Shown piece after piece: positions 18,019-23,626 of a stretch of DNA of 23,740 nt. Below the pieces are notes generated by a model. It was not told where the DNA came from. It made no database searches and saw only the letters and a program-made list of their open reading frames with translations. Position 1 is the first letter of the stretch. The number at the start of each line of letters is the position of its first letter. The stretch spans positions 1 to 23,740 of IMG/VR virus record IMGVR_UViG_3300009160_000172. One strand, given 5' to 3'. A program made the position numbers and the translations under genes. The DNA is from a virus.

Positions 18019-19359
18019 TCAGAGGACGTTGGTGAAGCCGGTGCCCTGAAGCACGGCCGTGGCCACGGGGTAGCGACCGGCGGTGAAGGCCGAGAAGCCG
18101 TAGGTGACCATGCGCACCGAGAGCTGGTCCGCGAGGACCTCCTCAAGCTGCAGGCCCACCGGGGCGCCAGCGGCCTCCATGAACAGCACGTCGGCGGCAC
18201 GGGTGACGATGACCCGGTCCTCGTTGGTGGCCGCACCGAGGTTGGTGGGGATGCCAGCGTCGGTGATGACCTTGATGCCAGCGATGGAGCCGACGCCGCT
18301 GTAGCCAGCGGCGACACCGTTGCCGACGGCGTTGAAGCCGGGGCCGTCGATCTGCACGAGCGGGCGGTTCGACGTGTCGGACTGCGCGCACAGGAACGCC
18401 CAACGGCGGGGGTGCATTACGATGAGGTCCGCAGCGGCGTACCGGGCAGCGTTGATGGTGCCGATGGCCTTGTGCAGCGACGAGACGAAGCTGGCGCCGG
18501 TGGTGCCGGTCCAGGCGACGGTCGCAACCGACGTGGTGTTGAGGATGCCGTAGTGGCTTCCGGCGGTGCCGTCACCCGAGATCGCCGAGACGTTCACCTT
18601 GGTGGCGTACTGCTGGAACAGGTCCGCAAGCAGGATCTGGCCGATCCCGGTGCCACGCTCGATGGACTGGCGGGACACGACCTGCTGGCCGGCGAAGGTG
18701 CGCACAGGCACGACGAGGTCGGACTCGACGTAGGTCGTGTTCGACACCGAGGTGTTCTCCGTCGCGACGGCCGCCACCGAGGTGCCGGTCGAGCCACGCG
18801 GGATGGTCAGGTTCATGCCCGAGTCCGGCAACGCCACGTTGGTGACGGCGCTGAGGAAGGGGCGGCCCGAGACGAGCACCGGGGCGAACTGGTCGACCAG
18901 GTACTGCGGGACCACAAGGCCACCGAAGGCGCCGGTCGTGGACCGAAGCTCGACGGACATCTCGACGCGGTTGCGCTCGATGCGGGCCGCAGCCTGTGCG
19001 TCGGCCTTGGCGTTGAGGGCGTCGGCGAAGAAGTCGAACTCTCCACCGGCGCGGTAGGTCAGGGCCTCGGCGCCGACACGGATGTCGGCTGCGTGGGCGA
19101 TCTCGCTGCGGACTTCCGCAGCCTCGGACTTGATGGCGTCCTGCTCGGACATGTCGGCCTCCTGGGCACGTAGTTCGGTGAGGCGCTCGTCGATCTCGCG
19201 CAGCTCGTTGCGAGCGGCGTCGAAGTCGGCGATCTCCTCGGGGGTGAGGTCGGAGCGACCCTCTGTCTCGACGGCGTCGAGCAGGGTGGTGAGACGCTCC
19301 TGGGCGCCCTCGCGTTCGGCGAGGGCGTCGATGATGAGTGAGCGGATCTGCTCGACCAT
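18019..19359 (-). CDS. HK97-fold major capsid protein with N-terminal coiled-coil domain
   Basis: This 446-residue protein is the capsid shell subunit. Residues 1-70 are a charged coiled coil (VEQIRSLIIDALAEREGAQE and following), fitting the delta/scaffolding domain of HK97-type capsids that the prohead protease removes. The shell domain runs from about 140: GGLVVPQYLVDQFAPVL, then GRPFLSAVTNVALPD, RQSIERG and a C-terminal LSVRMVTYGFSAFTAGRYPVA strand set. It is directly downstream of the protease gene. The ATG at 19359 has AAGGGAG upstream. The cleavage site cannot be fixed by eye but should lie between about 80 and 140. Confidence 0.95.
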   Translation of the reverse strand: MVEQIRSLIIDALAEREGAQERLTTLLDAVETEGRSDLTPEEIADFDAARNELREIDERLTELRAQEADMSEQDAIKSEAAEVRSEIAHAADIRVGAEALTYRAGGEFDFFADALNAKADAQAAARIERNRVEMSVELRSTTGAFGGLVVPQYLVDQFAPVLVSGRPFLSAVTNVALPDSGMNLTIPRGSTGTSVAAVATENTSVSNTTYVESDLVVPVRTFAGQQVVSRQSIERGTGIGQILLADLFQQYATKVNVSAISGDGTAGSHYGILNTTSVATVAWTGTTGASFVSSLHKAIGTINAARYAAADLIVMHPRRWAFLCAQSDTSNRPLVQIDGPGFNAVGNGVAAGYSGVGSIAGIKVITDAGIPTNLGAATNEDRVIVTRAADVLFMEAAGAPVGLQLEEVLADQLSVRMVTYGFSAFTAGRYPVATAVLQGTGFTNVL

Positions 19360-19470: not shown

Positions 19471-20685
19471 TCAGAGCTCGGTGACGAGCAGCTGACGGCG
19501 GGCAAGGTCAAGGCTGCGACCGGTGGCCGGCGCCTCTTCCTCGCTGCGCAGGGTGGCGACGGTGGCGGGGTTGGCCGGGAAACCGACAACGCTCACGTCG
19601 TGGAGCTTGACCTCGCTGATGGTGCGGTTTGTATACCCGGAGTCCCAGGCGTCGCGCACCACCCGAAATGCAAAACTCATGGCGTTCATGTCGCCGCGCT
19701 GCATGGCAGAGCGCAGCTCGGCGGCCTTCGGGTTGGCCGGGTCGAGCTCGGCGCGCACACGCAGGCCGACGTCGTCGGACTCCAGCTGCAGCGTGCCCGA
19801 CTTGGTGCGGGCCAGCGGCGTGCCCTCGTGGTCGATCAGCAGGACCACGTCGGCTTCCTTGGCCGACTTGGCTGCAGCGCCACGGGCGATGGTCTCGGTG
19901 AAACCACCGGCCTCGGGGCCACCAGCGATGTCGTAGGCGAAGTTGTAGACCGTTGCGTAGCCCTCGACGGTGAGCTTGTCACCCTCGGAGCGCAGCTCAA
20001 GGCGCTCGGACAGGCGACGCTCGGTCGTCGGCACGTCGAAACCTTCGTCGGTGCGCCGGTACTCGGTGTCGACCTCGAGCGAACGCACCGGCGCCATGTC
20101 CTCGACGCCAGCAGGCTCGACCTCGGCGACGACCGGCTGGACCTCGGGCAGGTCGGGGCCGTCGACCTGGTCAAGGACGACGGTGCCCCCGGGGATGCCT
20201 TCCTCGTCGGCCTCGTTGCCGATGGCGGTCAGGATCGAACGCAGCATCCAGCGACGCTTCTGCGACTCGTCCTGCAGCTCGGCAAGGAAGTTGACAAGCC
20301 CCTGCTCGTTGACGGCGTCGGCGGCGACCAGCAGGTCCTTGAGCGCCGCCACGAACTCCTCGACCTGGCCGAGCAGCACGGTGACGATCTCGCAGAAGTC
20401 GCCGAGCACCATGTCAAGACCGGCCGGGCCGAACACGGTGGGCGCCGGCGCGTCGAAGCGTCGAATCCACTCGGCGATGTCGTCGATGCGTCCCTGTGCG
20501 GCCTCGTAGACGCCCTGCAGGAAGGCGTGCTGCTCGGGGAAGTTGTAGCCGACCACGTTCCAGTGGGCGCCGTGCGCCGTTGCGTAGTGGTTCAGGTTCA
20601 GCTCGAAGAGGCCACGGAGGGCCACGACCAGCTCGGTCTGCGGCGCCGGCTGCGGCACGGGCTCGTAGGTGGGGACGTCAGACAT
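19471..20685 (-). CDS. Dps-like domain fused to HK97-family prohead protease
   Basis: This 404-residue protein joins two domains in one frame. Residues about 18-153 resemble Dps miniferritins: H41-W42 in AHGAHWNVVG, F49, H53, D68 and E72 in RIDDIAEWI, and a final helix with FLAELQDESQKRRWML. In Escherichia coli Dps numbering these match H51, H63, D78 and E82, with the same 12-residue histidine spacing; the D67 position is Q57. An acidic linker (about 158-215) leads to the prohead protease (about 235-380): GYATVYN, H286 in LIDHEGTP, S337 in MSFAFRV, and an acidic residue in VKLHDVSVVGFPANP (E358 or D363). The protease matures the capsid; the Dps part could act in the prohead or in iron/DNA protection. 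The gene lies between portal and capsid, as expected for the protease. Confidence 0.92.
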   Translation of the reverse strand: MSDVPTYEPVPQPAPQTELVVALRGLFELNLNHYATAHGAHWNVVGYNFPEQHAFLQGVYEAAQGRIDDIAEWIRRFDAPAPTVFGPAGLDMVLGDFCEIVTVLLGQVEEFVAALKDLLVAADAVNEQGLVNFLAELQDESQKRRWMLRSILTAIGNEADEEGIPGGTVVLDQVDGPDLPEVQPVVAEVEPAGVEDMAPVRSLEVDTEYRRTDEGFDVPTTERRLSERLELRSEGDKLTVEGYATVYNFAYDIAGGPEAGGFTETIARGAAAKSAKEADVVLLIDHEGTPLARTKSGTLQLESDDVGLRVRAELDPANPKAAELRSAMQRGDMNAMSFAFRVVRDAWDSGYTNRTISEVKLHDVSVVGFPANPATVATLRSEEEAPATGRSLDLARRQLLVTEL

Positions 20686-20696
20686 CGGGGCCTCTG

Positions 20697-21842
20697 TCAG
20701 TTGGTCGTCGGGCCGGCCGGTGCCTGGTCCGTCTGGGTGGGCTGCTGTTCGAGGGGCGGCAGGTTCTCGATGGCGCGGATCTCGTCGACGGTCCGCCAGC
20801 CCGATGCAAGTGCCTTGGCGTGCGCCTCGTAGCGGTCAAGCGTCGTCATGCGCAGCAGCGCTTCACGGCTCGCCTGGGCGTACTGCGGGCGTGGCAGCAG
20901 CTCGCTGAGCCCGCGCTCCACTTCTGCCAGCACCGGGTCCAACGAGAAGCGCAGCAGGTCCACGGCACGGCCCTCGACCGTGCTGTACGTCATGGAGCTG
21001 CCCGACTCTGCCCCGACGAGCTCCGGCGGCACTGCGAAGTACCTGCACACGTCCTGGACGCTGAGCTTGTAGGCGTTGAGGAACTCGGCGTCGGACGGCG
21101 TCACGCCGATCGGCTTGTACGAGAAGCCCTGGCCGAGCACCGCGATGCCGCGACGGTTGGCCACCGCAGCGTTCCAACGGTCCTTCAGTGCGGAAGCCTG
21201 GTCGGCGGTGATCTCGGCGTCGGACTCGAGCACGCCGTTTGGCTGGCCGCCCGACTGGAAGAACTGCAGGCCGTAGGTCTCCGACGCAGTGCCAAGACCA
21301 ATGCTGATCTTGGCCTTGTCGAGGACCGACATGCCGAGCGGCGAACCGGGGCCCACGTTGATCGCCGTGTGCCAGATCTTGGAGGCGTCCATCGGGACGC
21401 CGCCGATCCGGTACTTAACCGTGTCGGTGCGCCAGTCGTAGCGGGCGTTGACGAGGTCCGGGTGCAGGATCTGCACCGCCGACGGCAAGTTGTTGGCGCC
21501 ACGGGCCACGATGAGGCCAAAGGCGTTGCCTCGCAGCACCAGCGACTGCACGACCTGGCTGACCCAGTGCGTGATGGGCTGGTCGGCGTTCGGGTAACGC
21601 AAAATCTGCGGGTCCGTCGGCAGCCGCTTCTGGATGCCGTCGGCGTCCCGGTAGGCGTGCATCGGCAACGTCGACAGCAGGCGGCTGTACAGGTTGACGC
21701 AGGCGAACACGGCGCTGTGCGCCATGGCGTTGTCGGTGTTCAGTGGAGCGAACGCCGGATCAAGGCGCATCATCTGCGCGGCGGCGACGAGCTGGCCCGC
21801 AGACGGCTGCATGGCGCGCTTTTCGGGGAAGAACAGGCCCAT
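20697..21842 (-). CDS. HK97-type portal protein
   Basis: This 381-residue protein is the dodecameric portal through which DNA enters and leaves the head. Typical portal features occur in order: HSAVFACVNLYSRLLSTLPM (about 42-61), LVLRGNAFGLIVARG, WHTAINVG, an extended helix-rich region, and FAVPPELVGAESGSSMTYSTVE with the C-terminal helical crown. Its length fits HK97 gp3-type portals. The start is ATG at 21842, overlapping the stop of the 47-residue membrane gene (TGATG); an earlier frame to 21920 adds only arginine-rich residues from another frame. The protease gene begins 11 bases after its stop. Confidence 0.94.
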   Translation of the reverse strand: MGLFFPEKRAMQPSAGQLVAAAQMMRLDPAFAPLNTDNAMAHSAVFACVNLYSRLLSTLPMHAYRDADGIQKRLPTDPQILRYPNADQPITHWVSQVVQSLVLRGNAFGLIVARGANNLPSAVQILHPDLVNARYDWRTDTVKYRIGGVPMDASKIWHTAINVGPGSPLGMSVLDKAKISIGLGTASETYGLQFFQSGGQPNGVLESDAEITADQASALKDRWNAAVANRRGIAVLGQGFSYKPIGVTPSDAEFLNAYKLSVQDVCRYFAVPPELVGAESGSSMTYSTVEGRAVDLLRFSLDPVLAEVERGLSELLPRPQYAQASREALLRMTTLDRYEAHAKALASGWRTVDEIRAIENLPPLEQQPTQTDQAPAGPTTN

Positions 21843-21985
21843 CAGCGGCGCTCCAGAAGTACGCCCACAGCGACGAGGCAGATGCCGCCGGCGAGCAGGC
21901 CGAGCCGGTAGTCGACGCACGCAGCAGCGGCGACGACAAGGACGAGACCCGCAACCTCGAGCAGCGTGGTGATGATCTGACGCAT
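21842..21985 (-). CDS. 47-residue membrane protein between terminase and portal
   Basis: This small gene lies between the large terminase and portal genes. The ATG at 21985 is five bases after the terminase stop, and the TGA overlaps the portal ATG. It encodes a hydrophobic protein starting MRQIITTLLEVAG, with two membrane segments (about 6-22 and 28-43, the second ending in a VLLERR basic cap). Seamless fit between two essential genes and the membrane pattern support it. Function unknown; small membrane proteins at this position occur in some phages without an assigned role. Confidence 0.7.
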   Translation of the reverse strand: MRQIITTLLEVAGLVLVVAAAACVDYRLGLLAGGICLVAVGVLLERR

Positions 21986-21990
21986 ACGGG

Positions 21991-23424
21991 TCACCACACT
22001 GCGAGGACGGGGTCAGGAGCCTCGGGCTCGACCTCAGGTTCGATCGTTGTCACGCCCCACAGGGCGAGGGTTGCCGCAACAAGCGGCGAGATGTCGACGG
22101 CCGACGACGAGCGTGAGAACGCCCAGGCGTCGCCGAGCTTGCGCTTGGCTGCACCGGCGACGGCGGCGGTCAGGTCCGGTTGGCCAAGGTGGCGCACTTT
22201 GTCGTTGAGCACGGCGTCGAAGAGACGCCCGCACGCCTGGGCCATGTCCCGGCTCGAGGTCGTCACGACGTTGACGCCGGCGGCCTCAAGCTCGGGGATG
22301 ACCGTAGATGCCGGGCCGATTTGGTCGACGATGACCGCTCGGGGCTTCCACTTGTCCCACAGCTGGACGATGCGACCGACGACCCAGTCGGTGCCGGCAC
22401 GCCGGTCGACGAGCTCGATGACGTGCTTGTCCCCGGGGCCGAGACCAGCCACGGCGATCGAAGCGTGCTCACGGTCGGGAGCGAAGTCGACGGCGAAGCA
22501 CACGTCGTCGCCCGGCGACGTCTCCTTGTCGGTGCGACGCTCCCACGTCGAGACGGGGATGGGCGCAGAAGTGATGCCAGACGTCCAGCGGTTCAGGTAG
22601 GCGCGCTCAAACTCGGCGAGCTCCATCGACGTGAAGTCGGACCGGATCACGTCAAGGTCGATCGTGTGGCCGAGCGCCGGGTGGCACGACTGCCAGGTGA
22701 TCGGGTCGGCCGGGTCAAGCTCGTCCTCGGCGGACCACTCGAAGAAGCACACGCCGTCGGTCACGCCCTTTGCGGCGATCTCGCGCCCACGGTCAACCTT
22801 CTGACGCAGGTAGGTGCTGTCGGCGGTGCCGGCGGTCGACACGATCCACAGCTGCGGCTGGTCACGGGTGACCATCGACGGCTTGATTGCCTGCTCCATG
22901 CGGCCGTCGATCAGATGGAACGCCTCGTCGATGACGCCAACGTCCGTCTGCCTGCCGTGAACAGCAGTTTCGTGCGTCGCAGCGATCGTGTGCAGCGAGC
23001 CGTTCGCCCAACGGATCGCCTCGGAACCGTTCGACCGCCGGACGTGGAACATCGACGCCAGCTCGGAACGCTCGAGCACCGGGACGTGGTTGTCAGTGAA
23101 CTGCAAGTAGGCGTCGTTGCGGGTCTGCGCCGTGTAGACGATCTTCTGGTCGGGCCACTTTGTCGCACGCCAGACGAGCATGGCGAGCATGGCGCTCGTC
23201 TTGCCGGCCTGCCGCGGAATCGTGAGCACACACTCTCGGTAGACCAGGCGTCCGGTCGTCGGGTCGTACTCGAGGGCGACGTCCATGACGTGGCGCTGCC
23301 ACGGCATGAGCTCGAAGCCGAGCATCTCGGCGATGCCCGCGACCTCGCCGCCCCACGTCGGGCGGTCGGTCCTAGCGGTGCTCCACCTGGGCAGACAGGC
23401 GCGCGGCGAGCTGGTCGAAGGCAT
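21991..23424 (-). CDS. terminase large subunit
   Basis: This 477-residue protein is the ATP-driven DNA packaging motor. The ATPase domain has PWQRHVMD (41-48), a Walker A-type PRQAGKT (70-76), Walker B GVIDEA (163-168) and the coupling motif STAGT (196-200). The nuclease domain has its acidic residues D313 (in AVDFAPD), D367 (in AVIVDQIGPA) and D444 (in SSSAVDISP). The chosen ATG at 23424 gives 53 nt of overlap with the small terminase; a longer frame to 23493 adds residues from the other frame. The next gene starts five bases downstream. Confidence 0.95.
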   Translation of the reverse strand: MPSTSSPRACLPRWSTARTDRPTWGGEVAGIAEMLGFELMPWQRHVMDVALEYDPTTGRLVYRECVLTIPRQAGKTSAMLAMLVWRATKWPDQKIVYTAQTRNDAYLQFTDNHVPVLERSELASMFHVRRSNGSEAIRWANGSLHTIAATHETAVHGRQTDVGVIDEAFHLIDGRMEQAIKPSMVTRDQPQLWIVSTAGTADSTYLRQKVDRGREIAAKGVTDGVCFFEWSAEDELDPADPITWQSCHPALGHTIDLDVIRSDFTSMELAEFERAYLNRWTSGITSAPIPVSTWERRTDKETSPGDDVCFAVDFAPDREHASIAVAGLGPGDKHVIELVDRRAGTDWVVGRIVQLWDKWKPRAVIVDQIGPASTVIPELEAAGVNVVTTSSRDMAQACGRLFDAVLNDKVRHLGQPDLTAAVAGAAKRKLGDAWAFSRSSSAVDISPLVAATLALWGVTTIEPEVEPEAPDPVLAVW

Positions 23425-23626
23425 CGTTGACACCCGTGTCCTTGGTTGACAGCAGTTGGATCGTCGCCCGGTACTCGCGAGCCACCGCAGCAAGGCCGGA
23501 GCCGGCGTCGGTGTCGAGCGTGGCGGCGAGAGTCATGGCGAGCGAGGCGATGGCCTCAAGCTCGGCAGTCCAGTCGGCGTCCTTGCGGCGCTGCGCCAGG
23601 AGGGCCTTGAGCTTGCGCGTGTTCAT
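23372..23626 (-). CDS. putative terminase small subunit
   Basis: This 84-residue helical protein (KLKALLAQRRKDADWTAELE, then AIASLAMTLAATLD and REYRATIQLL) lies directly upstream of the large terminase and overlaps it. Small size, helical content and position fit a small terminase that recognises packaging DNA, although no DNA-binding motif is clear. The ATG at 23626 has GGAGGA two bases upstream, rather close; TTG at 23641 would add five residues. Its start overlaps the stop of a further open frame running off the right edge. Confidence 0.65.
   Translation of the reverse strand: MNTRKLKALLAQRRKDADWTAELEAIASLAMTLAATLDTDAGSGLAAVAREYRATIQLLSTKDTGVNDAFDQLAARLSAQVEHR

Follow-up and report, generated by a model that had tools for sequence, protein, structure and literature searches.

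The stretch of DNA analyzed here, referred to as the window, is a virus record of 23,740 bases from environmental DNA that carries tail and head genes at a G+C content of ~0.62–0.69. Its head genes lie on the minus strand in the order terminase large subunit, portal, a fusion gene and major capsid protein (MCP), with a connector beyond the MCP (Table 1). The fusion gene, for which the first-pass annotation had named no strand, reads from 20685 to 19471 on the minus strand as 404 codons with an ATG start and no internal stops. That annotation had placed the motifs of a Dps-type miniferritin and of a capsid maturation protease in this one gene between portal and capsid, which is confirmed by the ORF and by Pfam, PHROG and TIGR01543, and all of the residues it named are correct (H41-W42, H53, Q57, D68, E72, W146-M147-L148, H286 and S337). 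A truncated tyrosine integrase (PF00589, phrog_1) is found on the plus strand at the left end of the contig (positions 1–969). The record is probably a fragment of a tailed phage, and the integrase makes it probable that this phage is temperate.

Table 1. Head genes of the window and parts of the fusion protein.
Feature	Position	Strand	Basis
Terminase large subunit gene	21991..23493	-	phrog_9 6.1e-83
Portal protein gene, upstream of fusion gene	20697..21920	-	PF04860 2.5e-65; phrog_12 3.2e-73
Dps-like/prohead-protease fusion gene	19471..20685	-	404 aa + stop, ATG start; homologues L001-L003 in same frame
N-terminal tail, residues 1-14	20644..20685	-	residues 1-18 without Lys/Arg
Dps-like four-helix ferritin domain, residues 15-161	20203..20643	-	PF00210; AlphaFold; Foldseek; VIA
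Ferroxidase-type ligand stretch H41, H53, (Q57), D68, E72	20470..20565	-	invariance in fused ORFs
Linker, residues 162-228	20002..20202	-	mostly predicted disordered; acidic; dN/dS 0.40
HK97-type prohead protease domain, residues 229-385	19531..20001	-	PF04586 1.3e-34; phrog_80 8.6e-48; TIGR01543 5e-27
Major capsid protein gene, HK97 type, downstream of fusion gene	18019..19359	-	PF05065 4.3e-13; TIGR01554 3.1e-24

The N-terminal part of the fusion protein had been proposed to be a Dps-like four-helix bundle, and structure prediction followed by a Foldseek search returned a ferritin fold with Dps proteins as the best hits. Pfam Ferritin (PF00210) matches residues 31–154 with 44.6 bits (E 1.7e-11; gathering cut-off 24.5), in agreement with PHROG 3636 (Dps), and AlphaFold places helices at 15–43, 49–76, 97–124 and 128–161 with pLDDT mostly ~95 in a monomer model. 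The best Foldseek match in the PDB is to 3iq1 (E 9.5e-8, TM(target) 0.82). VIA gives a Z of 19.5 to the same structure with Dps tied with bacterioferritins, and thus the fold alone cannot separate the two. In sequence searches, the closest solved structures to the N-terminal part are Dps proteins, and a viral Dps profile recovers dodecameric Dps across the full length.

The window domain shares with Dps miniferritins (V. cholerae Dps 3iq1, P. aeruginosa PA0962 8ff9 and H. cinaedi CAIP 5lbh) the four-helix fold, the HW-x(10)-H and D-x(3)-E motifs and a Trp near the end of helix D. It differs from them in that it is fused to a protease, has Gln at the D67 position, lacks the BC-loop helix and any tail Lys/Arg, is acidic and falls far under the NCBIfam cut-offs (best Dps equivalog score 19.4 bits against 114). 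AlphaFold models no helix in residues 77–96, and the BC-loop segment is ~6 residues shorter in the window lineage than in nearly all relatives (22 vs. 28–29 residues), whereas a less divergent fusion, L265, keeps the BC helix in its own model (H151–157). Judged from these models, the window lineage has lost a BC-loop helix that its relatives kept. Since the helix is absent and the equivalog score lies below its cut-off, strict Dps membership fails and the domain is best described as Dps-like, not as a textbook Dps. It also sits on a long branch of the Dps-domain tree, in which 20 of the 88 inner branches are well supported, and fused Dps domains outside its own lineage are ~27–39% identical to it. 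Because of the long branch and the lost helix, the oligomer of this divergent domain may differ from that of Dps. The Dps part has a net charge of ~-9 (9 Lys + Arg vs. 18 Asp + Glu), the Lys/Arg-rich DNA-binding tail that is a feature of some Dps only is absent, and the fused Dps copies are acidic throughout (46/46 tabulated).

The residues H41, H53, D68 and E72 are the equivalents of E. coli H51, H63, D78 and E82. None of them is substituted in the 27 fused ORFs from the first two scans or in alignment A3, and 177 lone viral Dps show almost no variation at the same positions. Because of this invariance in the 27 fused ORFs, the Dps part probably still binds metal. The acidic residue at the E. 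coli D67 position is absent in the window, where Q57 is found, and this position is variable both in fused Dps (Q/L/G/N/E/K) and in lone viral Dps (G/E/A/D/S/Q). The first-pass count of four kept ferroxidase positions out of five holds, but the replacement of D67 by Q57 does not stand out as a special gap. Since all of the viral Dps sampled vary at this position, the alignments do not mark Q57 as a specific loss.

The linker has pLDDT values below 50 at residues 163–208 and 220–227, and a beta-rich protease follows it in the AlphaFold model. PF04586 (Peptidase_S78) matches residues 229–380 with 120.2 bits against a cut-off of 21, so that the profiles of both domains, ferritin and protease, score above their curated cut-offs. 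TIGR01543 reaches 94.8 bits against 59, and PHROG 80 is the head maturation protease family. The active-site residues H286 (19828–19830) and S337 (19675–19677) lie in columns that are invariant in an alignment of 14 sequences (A4), in line with the earlier reading of a complete HK97-type prohead protease. Likeness to the known enzyme (Peptidase S78/TIGR01543, PHROG 80) thus covers the complete domain, the His and Ser and the position between portal and MCP, while the window protein differs in its ~230 extra N-terminal residues, which comprise the ferritin domain and the disordered linker. A cleavage motif common to the MCP delta junction and the linker (R-S / EYR-like, by eye) was considered and dropped as too short to carry meaning.

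The same uninterrupted ORF occurs in three other IMG/VR contigs, L001 with a 100% identical protein and L002 and L003 with ~88–89% identity. By the Nei-Gojobori method, comparison of the window with L003 gives dN/dS values of 0.15 (Dps part), 0.10 (protease), 0.40 (linker) and 0.35 (N-terminal tail). These values indicate purifying selection on the Dps part and thus that selection preserves both domains while the linker is free to drift. A frameshift, chimera or assembly error was rejected given that L001–L003 are in frame and that the Dps part has a dN/dS of 0.15. Neither of the two outcomes that the first-pass annotation had named as fatal to its proposal, a fold other than ferritin and a frameshift between the two parts, was borne out.

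The search for the same two-domain architecture that had been suggested as a check was run on IMG/VR, with two DNA patterns for the Dps motif and a profile of fused Dps domains, and the ORFs were then classified with purpose-built HMMs. The Dps-protease fusion was recovered in at least 40 distinct contigs besides the window, in both domain orders and with several protease families. These contigs form at least 18 clusters at 70% and at least 8 at 50% identity, and the Dps domain is N-terminal in at least 35 of them and C-terminal in at least 5. Linkers across the fusions listed range from 31 to 292 residues and are largely of low confidence in the two models (window and L265). By PHROG match, the carriers fall into four protease families, namely 80 (window), 2753 (L077), 9427 (L112 and L289) and the portal/protease families 859/18402 (L022). 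Wherever the contig covers the region, N-terminal-type fusions follow the order terL, portal, fusion and MCP. The argument for multiple origins of the fusion is based on the different PHROG families of the protease and on the occurrence of both domain orders, not on the Dps-domain tree, which is too short for counting fusion events. In L170:5422-7833 and L235:2762-5824, the partner of Dps is by PHROG match a minor head protein (phrog_16619), and the C-terminal region of the L170 fusion also matches Zeta toxin PF06414.

Among the matches listed from the first two scans, no stretch with a lone Dps also held an S78 protease. None of the fusion partners that could be assigned, those of several long Dps proteins aside, is a tail or replication gene. 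In a sample obtained with a protease-only DNA pattern, Dps is carried by 2 of 117 related proteases; the Dps module is therefore an optional, minority choice. The viral-type Dps profile matched four loci (L223–L226) in ~85,000 prokaryote species genomes compared with at least 575 in IMG/VR, and for this reason the subfamily looks largely viral. Two of the four loci are the same fusion (L223 in an Actinomycetota MAG and L225 in a Betaproteobacteria MAG), and both adjoin portal, terminase and capsid genes. Searches of isolate phages by tblastn, for which the Dps parts of the window and L045, the full P0002 and L077 served as queries, returned lone Dps or Dps-less proteases and no fusion among the matches examined; weak Dps matches also came from two unannotated faecal phage records, H63 and H66. 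The same type of search found no fusion in plasmids, and there were no DNA-level relatives of the window among 50,697 isolate phages.

Two BFVD/UniProt proteins, A0A6J7WIS1 (432 aa) and A0A6J7WPK9 (763 aa), align to the structure model of the window protein at 33% identity over 413–421 columns running through both domains and almost certainly share its architecture. Both are named just "Prohead protease [uncultured Caudovirales phage]". The architecture is thus already deposited in UniProt, in at least two proteins, with the ferritin domain unannotated. A description of a Dps-protease fusion was not found in the open-access papers searched; ferritin has been listed for the defence of freshwater phages against reactive oxygen species (ROS) with no mention of a fusion (Kavagutti et al., 2019; PMC6802176). 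The Dps/ferritin genes of Synechococcus phage S-EIVl and Aeromonas phages LAh_6/8/9 belong to the same superfamily but are separate genes, unfused to head proteins. The ferritin gp217 of a Vi01-like phage, found by virion mass spectrometry and proposed to be located on the tail (PMC10892097), is likewise encoded by a separate gene, unlike the head-protein fusion of the window.

The nearest parallel in possible working is the ferritin-loaded encapsulin. Encapsulins are nanocompartments with an HK97-fold shell that house ferritin-like cargo (PMC8346489, PMC5012862); an origin from HK97-type phages has been proposed for them, and fusions of ferritin-like domains to encapsulins are known (PMC8346489). 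Both systems pair an HK97-fold shell with a protein of the ferritin superfamily, but the window has a true phage capsid and a Dps-like ferritin, and its proposed carrier is the maturation protease and not a targeting peptide or shell protein. The window system itself is not an encapsulin, since its shell gene encodes a phage MCP (PF05065, TIGR01554) beside portal and terminase and not a shell of the encapsulin family. A check against EncFtn/IMEF-type ferritins gave Dps proteins as the best sequence matches, in a ranked list in which absence decides nothing.

Proheads of HK97-type phages enclose the protease together with the delta domains of the capsid protein. The scaffold of HK97 is borne by the MCP, and its Prohead I contains the protease (PMC10275583). 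The best explanation of the fusion, which we hold with moderate confidence, is that attachment to the protease carries a ferroxidase/ROS-protection module into the prohead. The fusion would act as an encapsidation device in which the ferritin domain is enclosed along with the enclosed protease, and its conserved site would bind metal and oxidize and sequester Fe(II), the removal of which would limit peroxide/Fenton damage to incoming or packaged DNA. With less certainty, the disordered linker may be cut during self-digestion of the protease so that the ferritin part stays in the capsid, and as a further step the freed part might protect DNA or carry iron. The ferritin part may form a cage or only dimers, and dimers would suffice for a Dps-type inter-subunit site. 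We infer that Dps enters the head via fusion because the carriers share head membership while they differ in fold and in the end that bears Dps; with both domain orders and several protease families involved, placement in the prohead would be the most economical common denominator. The conservation of the metal ligands in turn suggests metal chemistry.

The presence of the Dps part in virions, its assembly as a cage and its oxidation of iron are candidate properties. The first-pass annotation had suggested that the Dps part might be left inside the capsid to bind iron and protect DNA. Its interpretation is supported in part, and a DNA-binding role is weakened, as the acidic surface and the lack of a basic tail disfavour DNA binding. 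It is equally conceivable that the disordered linker allows the Dps part to be degraded by the protease at maturation. It is also possible that the prohead proteases of environmental phages accrete domains in general, since they bear other accessory domains too. More tentatively, and with more doubt than belief, we suggest that the capsids of some HK97-type phages are ferritin-loaded compartments, which Dps would enter as a fusion to the maturation protease or a minor head protein, be freed in by proteolysis and stay in with the genome, detoxifying or carrying iron, as a viral counterpart of the ferritin-loaded encapsulins.

Instead of being a cargo, the ferritin fold could be an assembly module that, by oligomerizing the protease as a dimer or dodecamer, sets its copy number, holds it inactive or docks it in the core of the prohead, with metal only stabilizing the oligomer. 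Dps proteins are strong oligomers, and such a role would suit the attachment of Dps to an assembly protein within the head operon as well as the joint conservation of both domains. However, the low share of related proteases that carry Dps argues that the domain is not generally needed for protease assembly, and the exact ferroxidase residues are retained even in very divergent copies. Dps can be N- or C-terminal to the protease, and a minor head protein carries it as well. The MCP, moreover, bears its own N-terminal delta-like region of ~140 residues (before residue 146), which also makes the scaffold role mentioned in the first-pass annotation less likely. We therefore consider an assembly module unlikely, though worth keeping in mind.

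A purely cytoplasmic role, in which the Dps part is an iron/ROS-protective auxiliary in late infection and is fused only for co-expression, is in keeping with the lone Dps genes that are common in viral contigs and with the ferritin among the ROS-defence functions of freshwater phages (Kavagutti et al., 2019). Co-expression does not need a fusion, however, and repeated fusion to head proteins specifically would be unexpected, so we find this role improbable. Control of the protease by metal or redox sensing, in which Fe bound or oxidized by the Dps part switches the protease so that maturation follows a cellular signal, would make use of the covalent bond between a metal site and a protease that are both intact; it appears very improbable given the long linkers, low-confidence in two models, which speak against tight allosteric coupling, and the swapped domain order in at least 5 contigs. 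That the fusion is a functionless passenger or artefact, arisen by chance or by assembly error, is scarcely credible in spite of the missing BC helix and long branch of the window lineage, given the same frame in independent contigs, a dN/dS of 0.15 and at least 40 other contigs.

Prohead proteases are regarded as transient enzymes that are gone at maturation. The recurrent coupling to Dps, in both orders and with different protease families, suggests that the protease may be a vehicle that loads other activities into the head. If true, this would give capsids a concrete route to acquire ferritin-type proteins, with a bearing on the origin of encapsulins from phage capsids, on virion-borne iron in water and on the shielding of packaged DNA from Fenton chemistry. 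A further consequence of the coupling is that many proteins labelled only "prohead protease" conceal a second domain.

Several other domain combinations were seen in the same collections. Three proteins consist of an HAD/acid-phosphatase-like domain (PF03767), Dps and prohead protease in that order (L080:306-2651, L156:788-2905 and L184:4881-6899). Prohead proteases from the environment often bear long N-terminal extensions with small domains, DUF5824 in L334, L390, L327, L308, L344 and L378 and Hva1_TUDOR in L122, L202, L370 and L415. In ~40% of the sampled proteases, >120 residues lie between the preceding stop codon and the protease. In L011:634-2892 and L147:676-2232, Dps is followed by DUF5824, a domain borne elsewhere by prohead proteases, and these two proteins are possibly cargo-only.
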